The notes below the pieces were generated by a model that saw nothing but the letters and a program-made list of their open reading frames with translations, ran no database searches and had not been told where the DNA came from. From Pseudopedobacter saltans DSM 12145 (lineage in GTDB: Bacteria; Bacteroidota; Bacteroidia; Sphingobacteriales; Sphingobacteriaceae): a stretch of DNA of 64,000 bases. This document shows, piece by piece, positions 24,801 through 34,730 of this stretch (its first letter is position 1; every line of letters begins with the position of its first letter). The stretch is from the NCBI RefSeq assembly GCF_000190735.1, contig NC_015177.1, positions 248,001 to 312,000 of the forward strand, read 5' to 3'. The translations under genes were made by a program, and so were the position numbers.

Positions 24801-24911
24801 TCGGGTGCCTATATCGGCGGTGTCCACCTCTTCCCATTCCGAACAGAGCAGTTAAGCCCGCCAGAGCCGATGGTACTGCAGTAACATGTGGGAGAGTAGG
24901 TCGGTGCCTTA
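24801..24911 (+). rRNA. rrf: 5S ribosomal RNA
   Basis: The core CCCATTCCGAACAGAGCAGTTAAGCCC and the later GGGAGAGTAGGTCGGTGCC are diagnostic. The closing stem is GGGTGCC (from 24803) with GGTGCCT (to 24909), using G-U pairs. Length is about 107-111 bases. Confidence 0.95.
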
Positions 24912-24917
24912 CCTTAA

Positions 24918-25601: not shown

Positions 25602-25683
25602 TGAGGTTAATCATTTATTTTGAATGCTACAAGCCTTATCTTTGTGAAAGCGTGACGCTCAGATGTTGATATGTTAAAGCCAA

Positions 25684-25716
25684 ATTGACAAATGATTGAC
25701 ACATGATTGGCAATAC
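25684..25716 (+). promoter_or_regulatory. triple direct repeat, candidate hem-box, at the hemA promoter
   Basis: Three adjacent 11-base units begin at 25684, 25695 and 25706: ATTGACAAATG, ATTGACACATG and ATTGGCAATAC. Read as a spaced motif this is TGACA-N6-TGACA-N6-TGGCA. It ends 5 bases before the -7 box and covers the -33 region. Direct repeats at 11-bp steps are typical of OmpR/PhoB-family operators, and the operon encodes such a regulator (31925-32629). As I recall, Leptospira HemR binds a TGACA-N6-TGACA hem-box before hemA. Confidence 0.7.
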
Positions 25717-25721
25717 AAGGC

Positions 25722-25729
25722 TACTTTTG
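25722..25729 (+). promoter_or_regulatory. -7 promoter box of the hem operon
   Basis: TACTTTTG perfectly matches TAnnTTTG and lies 21 bases before the hemA TTG start. The nearest -33 candidate is the TTG at 25696-25698 inside the repeat (23-base spacing). A second possible -7 box, TATCTTTG, sits at 25637-25644 upstream of the repeats. Confidence 0.7.
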
Positions 25730-27043: not shown

Positions 27044-28642
27044 TTGGACAGAATATTTAAAATTGGTACAAGAGGTAGTGATCTCGCTTTATGGCAAGCC
27101 AATCACGTTGCTTCTAAACTAAATGAGGCAGGTTATCAGACAGAAATAAAAATCATTAAGACTCAGGGGGATAATATCCTTAATTTACGTCTTGATAAAT
27201 TAGAGGGAAAAGGTTTCTTTACTAAAGAGTTAGAGGAACATTTACTTGCAGGCGACATTGATCTAGCCGTACATTCACATAAAGATTTACCTACTGAAAA
27301 TCCCCCAGGTTTATTTATATCAGCAGTTTCCGAAAGAGAAGATCCATCGGAGGTTTTACTGATTTTAAAGGACTGTGTGGATACTTCTAAAAAGCTTTCG
27401 GTTAAGCATAACGGTTTGGTTGGAACTTCTTCCAATCGCAGACAATCGCAAATATCTTCTGTGAGACCTGATCTGGAATTTGAGGATTTAAGAGGAAACG
27501 TAAATACACGTATCCAAAAGCTTAGAGACGAAAATTATGATGCTATTGTTTTAGCAAAAGCAGGTGTTTCCAGACTGAATTTAGATTTGTCTGAATTTTA
27601 TATCGAAACTATAGAACCTGTTGCTGAAATGATTCCTGCCCCTGCTCAGGGCGTATTGGCTGTGCAAATAAGGGAAGGCGATAGTGAACTGGATGCTGTT
27701 TTGAAAGAAGTAATTCATAACCAAGAGGTTGCCAATTGCATTTCTGTGGAGAGAAAGGTTTTGAATCTTTTTAACGGAGGTTGTCACATGCCACTTGGTT
27801 CTTACTGCAAAAAGGAAGACGATATATACAAAGTATGGACGTCTAAGGCAAACGAAGCAGAGGAATTTGTAGACAGGTTATATCTGGAGTCTGAAACTAC
27901 GGAAGGACTTGCGGAAATTATTGTCAGCAAATTTGATTATCCGAATAGAAATTTGCCAAAAAAGGTATTTATATCAAGAGAACTATCTGAATACAGTTAT
28001 TTCGCAAGGGCTATGGCTAAACACGAAATAGAAATAGATGCGAGGTCTTTGATTAAAACAGTTCCAACGATACATAAAATAGATTCTTACATTTTTAAGC
28101 ATTTTGATTGGATATTTTTTAACAGTAAAAATGCCATAGAATACTTTTTTAATCTGGATCCGGTTTTACCTAAAAACATCAAGTTTGGCGTTGTAGGCAG
28201 AGGGTCTGAAGATGCTTTACGTTTAGTGGTAGGAAGAGTTCCGGATTTTATAGGGGAAAGTAGCGATACTGCTGAGATTGCCGAAGAGTTTGCTACTGTG
28301 GCGAATGGAACCAATGTTTTGTTTCCTTTGGCAAAAGATTCTTTAAGAAGCATTGTAAAAGGACTTTCTCCGGATACTAAAATTAAGGAACTGGTTGTTT
28401 ACGAAACAATTTTATTGGATGACGTAGATAAGAGTTATGCTGATGTGCTTGTTTTTACTAGCCCGTCCAATGTTGAAGCATATTTTGAAAATAATCTTTT
28501 GGATCCTGAACAAAAAATTGTTTCTATAGGCGCATCTACAGGTAAGAAATTGGAAGAAATTAATATTACATCTTATATTTTACCTGCTTCTCCAGACGAA
28601 ATTGGTTTAGCGGAGGCAGTGTTTGGTATAGATATTAAGTAA
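27044..28642 (+). CDS. hemC: hydroxymethylbilane synthase / uroporphyrinogen-III synthase fusion
   Basis: This 532-residue bifunctional protein carries two consecutive heme steps. Residues 1-300 are porphobilinogen deaminase (IGTRGSDLALWQA at the start; LVGTSSNRRQSQI; the dipyrromethane-cofactor cysteine C247 in FNGGCHMPLG). Residues from about 305 (NLPKKVFISREL) to the end form a HemD-like domain with the typical WIFFNSKNAIEYFF, LVVYET and VFTSPSNVEAYFEN segments. The start is TTG; an in-frame stop at 27017 and no ATG in between leave no alternative. As I recall, fused HemC-HemD is also found in Leptospira. Confidence 0.94.
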   Translation: MDRIFKIGTRGSDLALWQANHVASKLNEAGYQTEIKIIKTQGDNILNLRLDKLEGKGFFTKELEEHLLAGDIDLAVHSHKDLPTENPPGLFISAVSEREDPSEVLLILKDCVDTSKKLSVKHNGLVGTSSNRRQSQISSVRPDLEFEDLRGNVNTRIQKLRDENYDAIVLAKAGVSRLNLDLSEFYIETIEPVAEMIPAPAQGVLAVQIREGDSELDAVLKEVIHNQEVANCISVERKVLNLFNGGCHMPLGSYCKKEDDIYKVWTSKANEAEEFVDRLYLESETTEGLAEIIVSKFDYPNRNLPKKVFISRELSEYSYFARAMAKHEIEIDARSLIKTVPTIHKIDSYIFKHFDWIFFNSKNAIEYFFNLDPVLPKNIKFGVVGRGSEDALRLVVGRVPDFIGESSDTAEIAEEFATVANGTNVLFPLAKDSLRSIVKGLSPDTKIKELVVYETILLDDVDKSYADVLVFTSPSNVEAYFENNLLDPEQKIVSIGASTGKKLEEINITSYILPASPDEIGLAEAVFGIDIK

Positions 28643-28660: not shown

Positions 28661-29632
28661 ATGTTAAGCAGACCAAGAAGAAATAGAAAATCTCAGGTGA
28701 TTAGGGATATGGTGCAGGAGAATCATTTAAGAGCTTCCGATTTAATTTTTCCGTTGTTTATTATTGACGGACAAAATAAAAAGACAGAGGTTTCTTCGAT
28801 GCCGGGGATTTATAGATATTCTATAGACTTGCTTTTAAAAGAAGTGGAGTCCTGCATGAATCTGGGTTTGAAAACTTTTGATCTTTTTCCAAATATTGAA
28901 GAGTCTAAAAAAGACAAATTTGCCACGGAAAGCTTAAATAAGGACGGAATTTATTTGAAGGCAATCCGTGAGGTAAAAAAGTATTTTCCTGAATCTTGCG
29001 TTATCACCGACGTTGCTATGGATCCTTACAGCTCTGATGGGCATGATGGCTTGGTAGAGAACGGAGAAATTTTAAATGATGAGACATTGGATATTCTGGC
29101 GGAGATGTCATTGGCACATGCGGAAGCTGGGGCGGATATCATTGCTCCTTCTGATATGATGGATGGCCGTGTTGGATATATACGTGAAGCTCTGGATTCG
29201 CAGGGTTTTACAAATACTTCGATTATGTCTTATACCGCTAAATATGCAAGTGCGTTTTATGGCCCTTTTAGAGATGCGTTAGAGTCGGCTCCTAAATTTG
29301 GCGATAAAAAGACTTATCAAATGAATCCGGCTAATCAACGGGAAGCTTTAATAGAAGGAGCTTTTGATGTTGAAGAAGGGGCAGATTTTCTAATGGTAAA
29401 ACCTGCTTTGGCTTATCTGGACGTTATTAAACTTTTAAAGGATAATTTTGATTTGCCAATTGCGGCGTATAATGTTAGTGGTGAATATGCGATGATTAAA
29501 GCTGCTGTACAAAAAGGATGGTTAGAAGAAAGCCGAACAATAACGGAAGTGTTAATGGGGATGAAACGAGCTGGTGCGGATGTTATTTTGACGTACCATG
29601 CTAAGGAGGTCCTTGAAAAGGGCTGGATTTAA
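28661..29632 (+). CDS. hemB: delta-aminolevulinic acid dehydratase (porphobilinogen synthase)
   Basis: This 323-residue enzyme condenses two 5-aminolevulinate molecules to porphobilinogen. The Schiff-base lysine is in FLMVKPALAYLDVI and the second active-site lysine in MSYTAKYASAFYGPFR. The metal-site segment reads DVAMDPYSSDGHDG: the three cysteines of the Zn enzymes are absent and Asp takes their place, so this belongs to the Zn-independent, Mg2+-dependent class. It follows hemCD by 18 bases. Confidence 0.97.
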   Translation: MLSRPRRNRKSQVIRDMVQENHLRASDLIFPLFIIDGQNKKTEVSSMPGIYRYSIDLLLKEVESCMNLGLKTFDLFPNIEESKKDKFATESLNKDGIYLKAIREVKKYFPESCVITDVAMDPYSSDGHDGLVENGEILNDETLDILAEMSLAHAEAGADIIAPSDMMDGRVGYIREALDSQGFTNTSIMSYTAKYASAFYGPFRDALESAPKFGDKKTYQMNPANQREALIEGAFDVEEGADFLMVKPALAYLDVIKLLKDNFDLPIAAYNVSGEYAMIKAAVQKGWLEESRTITEVLMGMKRAGADVILTYHAKEVLEKGWI

Positions 29633-29671: not shown

Positions 29672-31042
29672 ATGTTCGATTCTCTTAAGAATATGTTGTC
29701 GGGAAATGACGGAGATAATACCGTTTCAAACAAAGAAAAGCGAGAAATTGTGAGGGAAAAATCTGCGGCTTTGTATGAAAAGGCAAAAACCTTTTTCCCT
29801 GGAGGTGTAAATTCTCCGGTTAGGGCTTTTAAATCTGTTTACGGAACGCCATTGTTTATTGAAAAGGGAGACGGATGTTTTTTATGGGATGCAGACGGAA
29901 ACAAATTTGTTGATTTCTGCTGTTCCTGGGGCCCTTTGATTTTAGGTCATAATCATCCTAAAGTTAGAGAAAAAGTTATTGAGGTTATGCAGAACGGAAT
30001 GTCTTTCGGAGCACCAACTGCTTTAGAAAACGAATTAGCGGGGTTGATTGTCAATAACAATAAATATATAGAGAAAATTAGGTTTACAAGTTCTGGTACT
30101 GAAGCTGTGATGTCTGCTATTCGTTTAGCCAGGGGAGTAACAGGAAGAGATAAAATTATCAAATTTGAAGGTTGTTATCATGGTCATTCTGATTCGCTTT
30201 TAGTAAAAGCAGGATCGGGTTTGGTAACTTTTGGCGAGACATCATCGGCCGGAATTCCAAAAGCGTTTGCTAACGAAACAATAGTTGTACCTTTAAATGA
30301 TAGAGAAGCAATCTCAGAAGCGTTTAAAACCTTTGAAAGCCAAATTGCAGCAATTATTATTGAACCGATTCCGGCTAATAACGGACTTTTATTGCAAGAC
30401 AGGGAGTATCTTGAATTTTTAAGAAATATCACTAAAGAAAATGGTACATTATTGATTTTTGATGAGGTTATTTCGGGATTTAGAGTAGGTTTTGAAGGTG
30501 CGGCAGGTTATTACGATATCCAACCTGATATCGTTACCTACGGAAAAATTATTGGTGGAGGATTGCCCGTAGGGGCTTATGCTTCTTCTTCTGAAATTAT
30601 GTCGCATATATCACCTGATGGAGGTGTTTACCAGGCAGGTACATTATCAGGAAATCCGGTAGCAATGGCTGCAGGTATTGCTCAATTATCTGAATTGTTA
30701 AAGTCAGGGTTTTATAAAGAGCTAAATGCGAAAACGCAGGAATTTGCTGAGTCTATCCAACGTTATGCTTCGGCTAAGAATTATAAATTAAAGGTTTTCA
30801 AAATTGGTTCAATTTTCTGGATTTCCTTTACAGATAAAGATAAAATACAAAGTGCACATGATATTGACGCAGGTGGTATGGATAAGTTTAAAGAAATGCA
30901 CAAAGAATTACTAAACCGGGGTGTATATTTTGGACCATCTGGTTACGAGGTAGGCTTTATTTCTTCTGCGCATAATAAAATGGAATTGGAGAAGGTAAAA
31001 CGTACGATTTTTGAAGTTTTGGATATCATTTTCAAAAAGTAA
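29672..31042 (+). CDS. hemL: glutamate-1-semialdehyde 2,1-aminomutase
   Basis: This PLP enzyme converts glutamate-1-semialdehyde to 5-aminolevulinate, the step after HemA. The protein is 456 residues; the conserved region begins at FFPGGVNSPVRAF (about residue 44), so an extra N-terminal segment of about 25-30 polar residues is present (MFDSLKNMLSGNDGDN). The PLP lysine is in VTYGKIIGGGLPVGAY, and DEVISGFRVG is intact. It ends 3 bases before the sensor kinase gene, indicating tight operon linkage. Confidence 0.96.
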   Translation: MFDSLKNMLSGNDGDNTVSNKEKREIVREKSAALYEKAKTFFPGGVNSPVRAFKSVYGTPLFIEKGDGCFLWDADGNKFVDFCCSWGPLILGHNHPKVREKVIEVMQNGMSFGAPTALENELAGLIVNNNKYIEKIRFTSSGTEAVMSAIRLARGVTGRDKIIKFEGCYHGHSDSLLVKAGSGLVTFGETSSAGIPKAFANETIVVPLNDREAISEAFKTFESQIAAIIIEPIPANNGLLLQDREYLEFLRNITKENGTLLIFDEVISGFRVGFEGAAGYYDIQPDIVTYGKIIGGGLPVGAYASSSEIMSHISPDGGVYQAGTLSGNPVAMAAGIAQLSELLKSGFYKELNAKTQEFAESIQRYASAKNYKLKVFKIGSIFWISFTDKDKIQSAHDIDAGGMDKFKEMHKELLNRGVYFGPSGYEVGFISSAHNKMELEKVKRTIFEVLDIIFKK

Positions 31043-31045
31043 GAT

Positions 31046-31909
31046 ATGAGACCACTAACCATTTTTTATGTCATTGTTTTCTACGTTATAGCGCAGCTAT
31101 TCTGGTGGGCGACTTTGTTAATTGCATATAATCCGGTTAGAAAGTGGATGGTTGTTGGAGAAGGTGTGGTTTTCCTTTCGTTAATGACTTTAGGTGCTAT
31201 TATGTTACATAAGGCATTTAACAGAGAGCGCAGAATGAATGTGCAGAAAAAGAATTTTCTACTATCTGTTACCCACGAATTGAAATCGCCGCTGGCATCT
31301 ATAAAGCTTTATTTACAAACCATTATGAAAAGGGATTTGGACAAGGAAACGCAACGCGGTTTCATTAGAAAATCTCTTTTGGATATCGAAAGATTAGATG
31401 ATATGGTGGAAAATATGCTATTGGCGTCTAAAATTGAAAATAACTCTTATTCTTTTCCAAAAGAAAATTTTAATTTTTCTGAACTGGTAGATCGGGTTGT
31501 AGGAAGATTGCAAATTCATGTTTGCAGTAAAGAGGCTTTGGTTACGAATATTGAACCTGATGTTTTTGTTGAGGGAGACAAATTTTCATTAAGTGCGGTG
31601 GTATCGAACCTGATTGAAAATGCTGTGAAATATTCGGCTGAATGTGATCCGATTTTTGTTGGTGTTTCTAAATTACCAAATGGGAAGGTTTCATTTAAGG
31701 TGGCAGATTTAGGAATAGGAATTTCGGATGAGGAAAAGCCTAAAATATTTAATAGGTTTTATAGAGTTGGTAGCGAGGAAACTCGTAAAACTAAAGGTAC
31801 TGGTTTGGGGTTATTTATTGTGAAGCAGGTGTTGGATAATCACCAGGCGCAGATAAAAGTTAAAGATAACACGCCAAGAGGAACTGTTTTCGAAGTTCTA
31901 TTGGATTAA
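31046..31909 (+). CDS. sensor histidine kinase (HemK-like) in the hem operon
   Basis: This is a 287-residue membrane kinase. Two helices (about residues 5-27 and 35-54) are joined by a loop of under ten residues, so there is no periplasmic sensor domain and the signal is probably sensed in or at the membrane. HisKA holds the phospho-acceptor H77 in SVTHELKSPL. The HATPase domain has the N box (VSNLIENAVKYS), DLGIGIS and TGLGLFIVK. Its place between hemL and hemE, next to a response regulator, matches the HemKR system as I recall it from Leptospira. Confidence 0.93.
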   Translation: MRPLTIFYVIVFYVIAQLFWWATLLIAYNPVRKWMVVGEGVVFLSLMTLGAIMLHKAFNRERRMNVQKKNFLLSVTHELKSPLASIKLYLQTIMKRDLDKETQRGFIRKSLLDIERLDDMVENMLLASKIENNSYSFPKENFNFSELVDRVVGRLQIHVCSKEALVTNIEPDVFVEGDKFSLSAVVSNLIENAVKYSAECDPIFVGVSKLPNGKVSFKVADLGIGISDEEKPKIFNRFYRVGSEETRKTKGTGLGLFIVKQVLDNHQAQIKVKDNTPRGTVFEVLLD

Positions 31910-31924
31910 AAAAACGTATTTATC

Positions 31925-32629
31925 ATGATAAATAAACAAAGAATTTTATTGATGGAAGATGAAGAACATCTTCTGGAAGCTATTAAATTGAACCTTGAGA
32001 TGGAAGGCTTTTTTGTCAGAGCGGTTACTGATGGAAAGAAGGCTTTAAAGGTTTTCAAGGAAGAAAAATTCAATTTGATAATCCTTGATGTTATGGTTCC
32101 TGAAATTGATGGATTTCAAGTTGCCGAAACCATTAGATTAGAAAACTCAGAGGTTCCAATTATGTTTCTAACCGCTAAAAATACTTCTGAGGATAGAATT
32201 ACAGGGTTAAAAAAAGGTGCTGATGATTATTTAACTAAGCCTTTCAATCTGGAAGAGCTAATTTTAAGGGTAAACAACCTGATTAAAAGGAGCATGAAAG
32301 GTGACGATTTGAAAGAGCTGAATTCTTATAAAATAGGAGATAAGACTATTTATTTTAACTCTTATGAATTGAAAAATGAAGATGGTACAATTACTCCATT
32401 AACTAAGAAGGAAACCATGCTGTTAAAGCTGCTGATCGAGCGAAAAAACGAAGCTGTTTCGAGAGAGCAAATCTTGGAAACGGTTTGGAATTATGACGTT
32501 TACCCATCAACAAGAACAATAGACAACTTTATACTTACATTTAGAAAGTATTTTGAGCCAGATCAAAAGAACCCTATATATTTCCACTCAATTCGTGGCG
32601 TAGGATATAAATTTACAGACGCAAATTAA
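31925..32629 (+). CDS. OmpR/PhoB-family response regulator (HemR-like)
   Basis: This 234-residue regulator has a receiver domain (acidic pair E11/D12, phospho-acceptor D55 in LIILDVMVPEIDG, switch Thr in FLTAKN, Lys in YLTKPF) and a C-terminal winged helix (REQILETVWNYD; FRKYFE; HSIRGVGYKF). It is paired with the kinase 15 bases upstream. OmpR-family proteins bind direct repeats at 10-11 bp steps; a triple 11-bp repeat is present at the hemA promoter 6 kb upstream, so autoregulation of the operon is likely (inference). Confidence 0.94.
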   Translation: MINKQRILLMEDEEHLLEAIKLNLEMEGFFVRAVTDGKKALKVFKEEKFNLIILDVMVPEIDGFQVAETIRLENSEVPIMFLTAKNTSEDRITGLKKGADDYLTKPFNLEELILRVNNLIKRSMKGDDLKELNSYKIGDKTIYFNSYELKNEDGTITPLTKKETMLLKLLIERKNEAVSREQILETVWNYDVYPSTRTIDNFILTFRKYFEPDQKNPIYFHSIRGVGYKFTDAN

Positions 32630-33144
32630 TGTTTACCAACGGAGCAAGGGGTTTAGTTTGCGTACTTTTAGCTTTGACGGCCTTGTTGGCCGCTTATTTC
32701 AAAGTCTATGAAATAACAATTTTAGCTGTTTTTTTCATAGGCTATGTTATTTGGGGCTATTATAAAGAAGGAACGGTTGTTTTAGCTGCAAAACAGTATA
32801 AGAACGGAGACTTTGGAAAAGCTAAAGAGCTTTTGTATTCTATTAAGAATCCTCAAAGGTTGAGTAAAAAAAGGCTTCCTTATTATGAGTTTATTTTAGG
32901 AAGCATAGCACTTAAGGAATCTGATTATGAAGAAGCGGAAGCTCATTTGAGCAGGGCAGCTTTTTTAGGATTAAGAGCAGGTGATATCATTTCCTCCTTG
33001 CTGCATTTGGCTAACATAGCCTTAAGAAAAGGAGAGAAAGAAAAAGGCTTGGCCTGGTTGGCAGAAACGGAAGATTTACCTCTAACATCAAGACAAAAAA
33101 GTATTATAGAAAACATAGAAAAGGAGTTAAAGAAAATTAAATGA
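32629..33144 (+). CDS. membrane-anchored TPR protein in the hem operon
   Basis: This 171-residue protein starts with two hydrophobic helices (about 8-24 and 28-44) followed by two or three TPR-like helix pairs (YYEFILGSIALKESDYEEAE; LLHLANIALRKGEKEKGLAW). Its ATG shares a base with the regulator stop (TAATG) and its end overlaps hemE by 4 bases, so translation is coupled on both sides. The layout (two N-terminal helices, then TPRs) recalls a short version of enterobacterial HemY, a heme-operon protein of unclear role. Homology is not established. Confidence 0.85.
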   Translation: MFTNGARGLVCVLLALTALLAAYFKVYEITILAVFFIGYVIWGYYKEGTVVLAAKQYKNGDFGKAKELLYSIKNPQRLSKKRLPYYEFILGSIALKESDYEEAEAHLSRAAFLGLRAGDIISSLLHLANIALRKGEKEKGLAWLAETEDLPLTSRQKSIIENIEKELKKIK

Positions 33145-34175
33145 AAAATTCGTTATTTATTAAGGCGGCTTTATCACAGGAAACAGAACGTCCACCGGTT
33201 TGGATGATGCGTCAGGCAGGACGATTTATGCCCGAGTATTGGGAAATTAAGAATAAATATTCATTTCTCGAAATGTGCAAAACTCCTGAAATTGCTGCAG
33301 ACGTTACGATGCTTCCAGTAGATTTATTGGGCATTGATGCTGCAATTTTGTTCTCTGATATTTTGGTAACTGGAGAGGCTATGGGCGGACAGCTAAGTTT
33401 TGAGCAAGGTGTAGGACCTCGGTTTGCTAATCCGGTACAAAACTTAAAAGATGTTGAGGCTTTGGAAGTCGACGTGTTGGATAGGCTTCAGTATGTGGCC
33501 GATGCGATTAGGGTTATTCAGAGCCGTTTATCTAAGTTGGGCGATCAACAAATTCCATTAATTGGTTTTGCTGGTGCTCCTTTCACGGTGATGAGTTATT
33601 TGGTTGAGGGTGGATCTTCTAAAGATTTTAAAAAAACCAAGTTATTTATGTTTAACCAGCCTGAAGCTGCACATAAATTATTACAGAAAATTGCAGATGT
33701 TACGGTAGATTATTTGAATATGCAAATTGCTGCCGGAGTAAATGCTGTTCAGATTTTTGATAGTTGGGCTCTTGCGTTAAGCTGGGACGATTACAGAGAG
33801 TTTTCTCATCAATATATTCAAAACATTATTTCCAGGTTGAATCGTACAGTTCCTGTAATCTCTTTCTGTAAAGGAAGTTCGGTTTTTGCACCTATAATGG
33901 CCGAAGCCAAACCGGATGTAGTTTCTGTTGACTGGAATGCAGATATTAGAAATATTAAATCAAAGCTACCACAAGGTATAGCGGTTCAGGGAAATCTGGA
34001 TCCTTTTGTTCTTTACGCAGATAAAGCGGTTATCAAAGACAGAATTTTAAGAATTATCGAAAGAATGAGAGGTGAAAAAGGATTCATCTTTAATTTAGGG
34101 CATGGAATTATGCCAGATATTCCTTTTGATAATGTTAAATATGCGGTAGAGGTAATTAAAGAATTCAGATATTAA
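33141..34175 (+). CDS. hemE: uroporphyrinogen decarboxylase
   Basis: This 344-residue cytosolic enzyme decarboxylates the four acetate side chains of uroporphyrinogen III to give coproporphyrinogen III. The N-terminal signature RPPVWMMRQAGRFMPEY is intact, as are FSDILVTGEAMG and the C-terminal GFIFNLGHGIMPDIPFDNV. It overlaps the preceding TPR gene by 4 bases and precedes hemJ by 9 bases. Confidence 0.97.
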   Translation: MKNSLFIKAALSQETERPPVWMMRQAGRFMPEYWEIKNKYSFLEMCKTPEIAADVTMLPVDLLGIDAAILFSDILVTGEAMGGQLSFEQGVGPRFANPVQNLKDVEALEVDVLDRLQYVADAIRVIQSRLSKLGDQQIPLIGFAGAPFTVMSYLVEGGSSKDFKKTKLFMFNQPEAAHKLLQKIADVTVDYLNMQIAAGVNAVQIFDSWALALSWDDYREFSHQYIQNIISRLNRTVPVISFCKGSSVFAPIMAEAKPDVVSVDWNADIRNIKSKLPQGIAVQGNLDPFVLYADKAVIKDRILRIIERMRGEKGFIFNLGHGIMPDIPFDNVKYAVEVIKEFRY

Positions 34176-34184
34176 TATTAGTCA

Positions 34185-34730
34185 ATGTACAGATACGTTT
34201 TAGCCGTTCATATCATTTTTATGGTCAGTTGGATGGCTGGCTTATTTTATATCGTTAGACTTTTTATCTATCATACCGAGGCGAATGAAAAGCCTGAGCA
34301 GGAGCGCAAGATATTGCATAGTCAATTTCAGCTAATGGAGTCGAAATTATGGAACATTATTACTACTCCAGCTATGGTATTGACTGTACTTGCCGGAATA
34401 ACCATGTTGTATTTAAACTTGGGACTGCTGTCTTTGGGTTGGATGCATGTTAAGTTGACTTTTGTTTTAGGACTACTGATTTATCATTTCAGATGTCAGG
34501 TAATCATGAAACAATTGCGAAAAGGTGAATTTAAGTTAAGCAGTACGCAATTGCGTTTTTGGAATGAATTGGCGACTATATTCTTAGTGGCAATAGTTTT
34601 TACTGTAATTCTAAAAAGTGCGATAGACTGGCTTTATGGGCTTATAGGTTTGATTGTGTTTGCTGTGGTTGTTATGAGTGCGGTTAAGATTTATAAATAT
34701 TACAGGTTAAAAAAACGTAAAGAACTCTAA
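34185..34730 (+). CDS. hemJ: protoporphyrinogen IX oxidase HemJ
   Basis: This 181-residue inner-membrane protein has four to five helices. It starts MYRYVLAVHIIFMVSWMAGL, with the family's conserved histidine (H9), and carries WMHVKLTFVLGLLIYH with the conserved Lys. HemJ is the alternative, flavin-independent enzyme that oxidises protoporphyrinogen IX to protoporphyrin IX. The final residues (KKRKEL) are encoded inside a dispersed CGTAAAGAA/CGCAAAGA repeat, so the C-terminus may have been reshaped by it. It is the last gene of the operon. No coproporphyrinogen oxidase or ferrochelatase is present in the window. Confidence 0.9.
   Translation: MYRYVLAVHIIFMVSWMAGLFYIVRLFIYHTEANEKPEQERKILHSQFQLMESKLWNIITTPAMVLTVLAGITMLYLNLGLLSLGWMHVKLTFVLGLLIYHFRCQVIMKQLRKGEFKLSSTQLRFWNELATIFLVAIVFTVILKSAIDWLYGLIGLIVFAVVVMSAVKIYKYYRLKKRKEL

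Follow-up and report, generated by a model that had tools for sequence, protein, structure and literature searches.

The window analysed here, a 64,000-nucleotide stretch of the Pseudopedobacter saltans DSM 12145 genome, contains a heme operon in which genes for a histidine kinase and a response regulator lie among those for the pathway enzymes, and a short direct repeat precedes its first gene, hemA. This arrangement raises the question of whether the repeat is an operator for the regulator encoded downstream and, if so, whether that regulator turns heme synthesis on or off.

The repeat and the operon downstream of it

The repeat, promoter element and genes occupy the following positions of the window.

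25686 to 25690, + strand: hem-box half-site 1, TGACA; exact match, conserved
25697 to 25701, + strand: hem-box half-site 2, TGACA; occupies the −33 position, its end being exactly 20 bp from the −7 box
25708 to 25712, + strand: third unit, TGGCA, degenerate; unconserved in relatives and probably incidental
25722 to 25729, + strand: −7 promoter element, TACTTTTG; consensus TAnnTTTG, from PMC7366714 and PMC2483708
25751 to 26983, + strand: hemA, glutamyl-tRNA reductase, TTG start; TIGR01035 above cut-off
27044 to 28642, + strand: hemC-hemD fusion, hydroxymethylbilane synthase and uroporphyrinogen-III synthase; Porphobil_deam and HEM4
28661 to 29632, + strand: hemB, porphobilinogen synthase
29672 to 31042, + strand: hemL, glutamate-1-semialdehyde aminomutase; TIGR00713 above cut-off
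31046 to 31909, + strand: HemK-like histidine kinase, 287 aa, H77; HisKA and HATPase_c, hydropathy, H box
31925 to 32629, + strand: HemR-like OmpR/PhoB-type response regulator, D55; Response_reg and Trans_reg_C, tree
32629 to 33144, + strand: small TPR-like protein; weak TPR match, operon position conserved
33141 to 34175, + strand: hemE, uroporphyrinogen decarboxylase; TIGR01464 above cut-off
34185 to 34730, + strand: HemJ-type protoporphyrinogen oxidase; TIGR00701 above cut-off

The letters at 25684–25716 read as claimed in the original prediction, three units (TGACA, TGACA and TGGCA) with a spacing of 11 bp, and the 33-base block which they form does end 5 bases before the −7 box, TACTTTTG at 25722–25729. 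The first two units, TGACAAATGATTGACA at 25686–25701, are an exact TGACA-N6-TGACA. With the box upstream of hemA, the genes follow in the order hemA-hemCD-hemB-hemL-kinase-regulator-TPR-hemE-hemJ; the predicted OmpR-family regulator gene was confirmed in this same operon, a kinase and an OmpR/PhoB-type regulator, with receiver and winged-helix domains, being encoded between hemL and hemE. The 5S gene of an rRNA operon lies ~800 bp upstream of the operon start (window 24801–24912), and the rare TTG start of hemA (window 25751) is kept in nearly all family members. Within one family, the hemB genes at the same operon position were of two types, ~48% (L044, L048, L050, L054) versus >76% (L031–L042) identical to the hemB of the window, which suggests in-place gene replacement.

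The best family-model matches of the regulator were RprY and PhoB of Bacteroides (NF051850 and NF053854), which share its domain layout; however, its scores, 187 of 370 and 183 of 270 bits, were far below the curated cut-offs, and therefore we concluded that it is neither. A PDB sequence search returned general OmpR-family structures only and no HemR. The kinase, encoded in the same operon, has two hydrophobic (membrane) segments with ~7 residues between them, and therefore sensing probably takes place in or at the membrane.

When both strands of the 4.64-Mb genome were searched for exact TGACA-N6-TGACA, as the original prediction had proposed, there were two copies only. The second (C1:1038001) is not promoter-like: it is 355 bp upstream of a gene for an unrelated secreted protein and is without a −7 box at the right distance. 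The box with a −7 box 20–21 bp downstream occurs once in the genome, at hemA. Having no phased −7 box, neither the C1:1038001 copy nor any of the one-mismatch sites was accepted as a regulated promoter.

Conservation of the box and its proposed regulator in Bacteroidota

We searched 60 genomes for the regulator and extracted the operon loci from them. Among 41 Bacteroidota promoters with hemA of the same type, the box was present with no more than one mismatch in 39, relative to ~0.25 expected, and half-site 1 read TGACA or TTACA in 39; the proposed alignment of hemA upstream regions thus showed that the box is kept in relatives with the regulator. Where hemA lies beside the regulator (22 promoters, including that of the window), the box was exact in 14 and had at most one mismatch in 21, at a distance from the hemA start of 62–77 bp and, in one case, 123 bp. 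For the 19 promoters with the regulator gene elsewhere, the corresponding numbers were 14 and 18. The chance level at one mismatch or fewer, obtained from dinucleotide shuffles, was 0.12–0.13 expected per group.

We also read four hemA genes of a distant type (27–30% identity). Those of G037 and G057, which are without a close regulator orthologue, have no box, and these two genomes, both with distant-type hemA, are the only negative control for it. In G031, which has the orthologue and distant hemA, one of two copies had a box, not in phase with the −7 element. Congeners with small genomes of 2.2–2.8 Mb (L043, L045–L047; G003, G015, G005, G016) keep both regulator and box, the regulator not being beside hemA. 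Outside the home family the kinase is often absent beside the regulator, and most of the other families within the class (L064–L079) have a regulator without an adjacent kinase and still keep the hemA box.

In an unbiased scan, TGACA-N6-TGACA-N20/21-NANNTTTG matched 18 times in 247 genomes of the phylum, relative to 2 matches for the reversed pattern used as control. Seven of the 18 were before hemA and three before hemL; the remaining eight were not before heme genes and look like chance. The hemL cases (L302, L303 and L305, from G121, G112 and G117, respectively) all came from family f32, which belongs to another class of the same phylum and has the operon order hemL-kinase-regulator-hemE, a regulator 50–53% identical to that of the window, and a phased −7 element. 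Every genome with one of the ten heme-linked matches had a close regulator orthologue (51–100% identical).

The box might be real and yet be bound by another PhoB-like regulator, the linkage of the HemR-like gene being coincidental; a similar helix is present in several paralogous regulators, and the HemR-like gene is unlinked in many families. This we consider very unlikely, since box and orthologue occurred together in f1, f20, f27, f28 and f32 and the 247-genome scan gave no heme-linked match in families where no orthologue was found, since the linkage recurs in two phyla, and since Leptospira HemR has been reported to bind TGACA-N6-TGACA.

Relationship to the HemKR system of spirochaetes

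The HemR hem-box that the original prediction had placed before hemA of Leptospira is borne out by the literature: TGACA[N6]TGACA is bound by P~HemR of L. biflexa (PMC11426443), and in L. interrogans hklep/rrlep sit between hemL and hemE (PMC2266917). Kinase-regulator linkage to heme genes is also found in Bdellovibrio (PMC2266917). The locus in the window resembles the Leptospira system in having TGACA-N6-TGACA before hemA, a kinase and an OmpR/PhoB-like regulator between hemL and hemE (as in L. interrogans), and a HemC-HemD fusion in a C5-pathway operon. It differs in the −7 TAnnTTTG of the Bacteroidota promoter, in the small TPR gene between regulator and hemE, and in its kinase, which has almost no periplasmic loop and has Ser at H+4, whereas L. 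biflexa HemK needs T102 for phosphatase action. All Bacteroidota HemK-like kinases that we read have HELKSP (window 31274–31291, H77 to P82), and the spirochaete-class kinases have HELKTP, with Thr at H+4; the Ser could do the job of the phosphatase residue Thr102 of L. biflexa HemK. A further difference is that the promoter-phased box occurs here only at hemA, whereas in Leptospira it extends to hmuO, exbBD and a TonB receptor. For a heme and iron regulon of this breadth (with heme oxygenase, exbBD and a TonB receptor), no other exact box or one-mismatch AAA-type site with TAnnTTTG in phase was found in this genome; regulon breadth as in L. biflexa is not counted as a defining feature of the regulator-operator pair.

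The spirochaete sample was reached from a 16S pattern through loci titled Leptospiraceae bacterium to a class of 48 genomes; the comparison is thus with genomes of the class containing Leptospiraceae MAGs rather than with the genus Leptospira itself. A class-wide search was used instead of the first spirochaete family tried, that of G060, whose regulators were divergent (28–36% identity), and no Leptospira hem genes were found in the plasmid collection. In most genomes of the class the best match to the window's regulator is found between hemL and hemE and has a kinase upstream of it, and the order hemL-kinase-regulator-hemE is common to three lineages. The box was present in all eight spirochaete operons with an identified hemA (seven exact, one with one mismatch; ~0.1 expected), 49–87 bp upstream of hemA, and half-site 1 was TGACA in seven of the eight; the other 12 of the 20 operons were left out of this promoter count because their hemA was unidentifiable.

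A tree of 90 rows placed the HemR-like regulators of Bacteroidota in one group, with a support of 98. Constraining all hem-operon regulators from the two phyla to a single group gave a likelihood above that of the free search and was not rejected (p-AU 0.876); constraining the Bacteroidota HemR-like regulators with Bacteroidota paralogues, as expected for separate recruitment, was rejected (p-AU 7.1e-5). By this test, the regulator shares one origin with the hem-operon regulators of the spirochaete class sampled, as distinct from the genus Leptospira; the exact topology is uncertain because the tree search was quick and the branches are long. The recognition helix RTIDNFI is shared as well, and it was downgraded as proof of identity because RTVDNFI is also found in some other regulators.

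Convergence of the two phyla on a short motif would involve only ten specified bases, and 11-bp direct repeats are used by other PhoB-like regulators too (PMC4415409). It nevertheless appears highly improbable, as gene order, regulator phylogeny and motif are concordant and separate recruitment was rejected at p 7e-5. To judge from box conservation, gene order, the regulator tree and the unbiased scan, the HemKR/hem-box system published for Leptospira is shared with Bacteroidota, and the proposal of a regulator-operator pair common to both phyla therefore stands. No earlier report of heme control by HemKR and a hem-box in Bacteroidota was found in the literature searched.

Promoter spacing and the direction of control

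In 38 of 39 Bacteroidota promoters half-site 2 was separated from the −7 box by 20 bp (31 promoters) or 21 bp (7 promoters), so that it stands, at constant spacing, where a −33 element would be, and the repeats do cover the −33 region as originally described. Of 38 promoters, 36 had no canonical TTTG in the −33 zone. The units of the home family often read TTGACA, the classic −35 hexamer, and could on that account be −35-like promoter elements instead of a regulator operator. This is hardly credible, since ATGACA or GTGACA takes its place in other families, conservation covers the pair of half-sites at their 11-bp spacing, the box tracks the regulator gene across phyla, and the −33 consensus of Bacteroidota is TTTG (PMC7366714).

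Bacteroidota promoters have the consensus TAnnTTTG at −7 and TTTG at −33 (PMC7366714; PMC2483708). As the −33 motif is not essential, though required for full activity (PMC2483708), and was not found in Flavobacterium johnsoniae (PMC7366714), the absence of TTTG alone is weak evidence. At PhoB-activated promoters, 11-nt direct repeats are bound head to tail, with sigma contact and strict spacing (PMC4415409; PMC10294691). The hemA promoters share with the pho box two 11-bp direct repeats and strict core-promoter spacing, and differ from it in sequence (TGACA versus CTGTCAT), in process (heme versus phosphate) and in regulator subfamily. Because the repeat is constantly phased in the place of an upstream element, as at PhoB promoters, we consider activation a better reading than repression; by this analogy, the most likely role of the regulator is to switch heme synthesis on rather than off. 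In Leptospira, the loss of P~HemR that follows ALA is accompanied by a drop in hemA (PMC11426443), and activation of the heme pathway by P~HemR has been proposed (PMC11426443, citing Morero 2014). An L. biflexa double hemKR mutant showed no significant change in the hemA operon (PMC11426443), and activation may therefore be conditional.

The original prediction had instead favored repression, in which the regulator binds the box but blocks the −33 region. The overlap of the box with that region agrees with this idea, as do the repression of another target, hmuO, by Leptospira HemR (PMC11426443) and the position of the window's TGGCA, which would fall inside the promoter spacer. Repression is nevertheless unlikely because half-site 2 lies 20–21 bp from the −7 box, in the place of the missing −33 element: a repressor would not require its site to be in exact phase with the −7 box, a promoter without TTTG should be weak when unaided, the response of Leptospira hemA to loss of P~HemR points the other way, and the third unit is unconserved. 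Among all promoters examined, a third unit with one mismatch or fewer was present only in the window and in L186, a spirochaete hemA promoter with the three-unit array TGACA-N6-TGACA-N6-CGACA; the chance, with equal base frequencies, is 16/1024 per promoter, or ~0.7 expected in 47. The extra unit, put forward as a feature of this locus, is thus at chance level and was found in 1 of 41 Bacteroidota promoters. As it occurs only in the window and, in different form, in L186, TGGCA is probably incidental or else a local modification.

A second element, ATTTA-n-TCTAAAT, was present upstream of the box in all 30 other family members read (L031–L063, L194–L202), where TCTAAAT starts 15–17 bases ahead of the box; two further families have the element too. 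It is absent at 25640–25685 of the window, which is alone in this in its family among the promoters read. Because a palindromic form precedes PepSY_TM and TonB-receptor genes in this genome, the pattern suggests a candidate Fur box. Several spirochaete promoters (L174, L175, L181, L186) have a Fur-like palindrome, for example TGAGAATGATTCTCATT, upstream of the hem-box. Since Fur-like elements lie upstream of the box in both phyla, the hemA promoter probably brings heme and iron inputs together in both, and the window lineage has probably lost the iron part of its promoter.

We propose, with a probability of about 80%, that the repeat is the predicted operator of a HemKR-type two-component system which is encoded in the operon under its control and activates it. 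The membrane kinase would sense a heme-pathway signal and phosphorylate the regulator, two molecules of which would bind head to tail to the two 11-bp-spaced TGACA half-sites; the downstream half-site would stand in for the missing −33 element, and the bound regulator would contact the primary sigma factor and so bring about transcription from the −7 box. The output would be more hemA and, via the operon, more kinase and regulator; with tetrapyrrole precursors in good supply, the kinase would remove the phosphate from the regulator and so lower synthesis. Binding, activation and signal we infer from Leptospira and PhoB.

It is also fairly probable that HemKR and the hem-box are an old and widespread means of heme control in Bacteroidota, found in at least two classes and common to Spirochaetota, with the same operator kept at −7/−33-type promoters, mostly at hemA and in one class at hemL, and often with a Fur-like site ~16 bp upstream that would tie heme synthesis to iron. 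A system so far described in Leptospira, with linkage mentioned for Bdellovibrio, would thereby be extended to Bacteroidota, a phylum with tractable laboratory strains. Regulator, operator and target could be specified in many families together, with the direction of control clearly predicted, and the hem-box would provide an example of an operator conserved across phyla with different promoter types.
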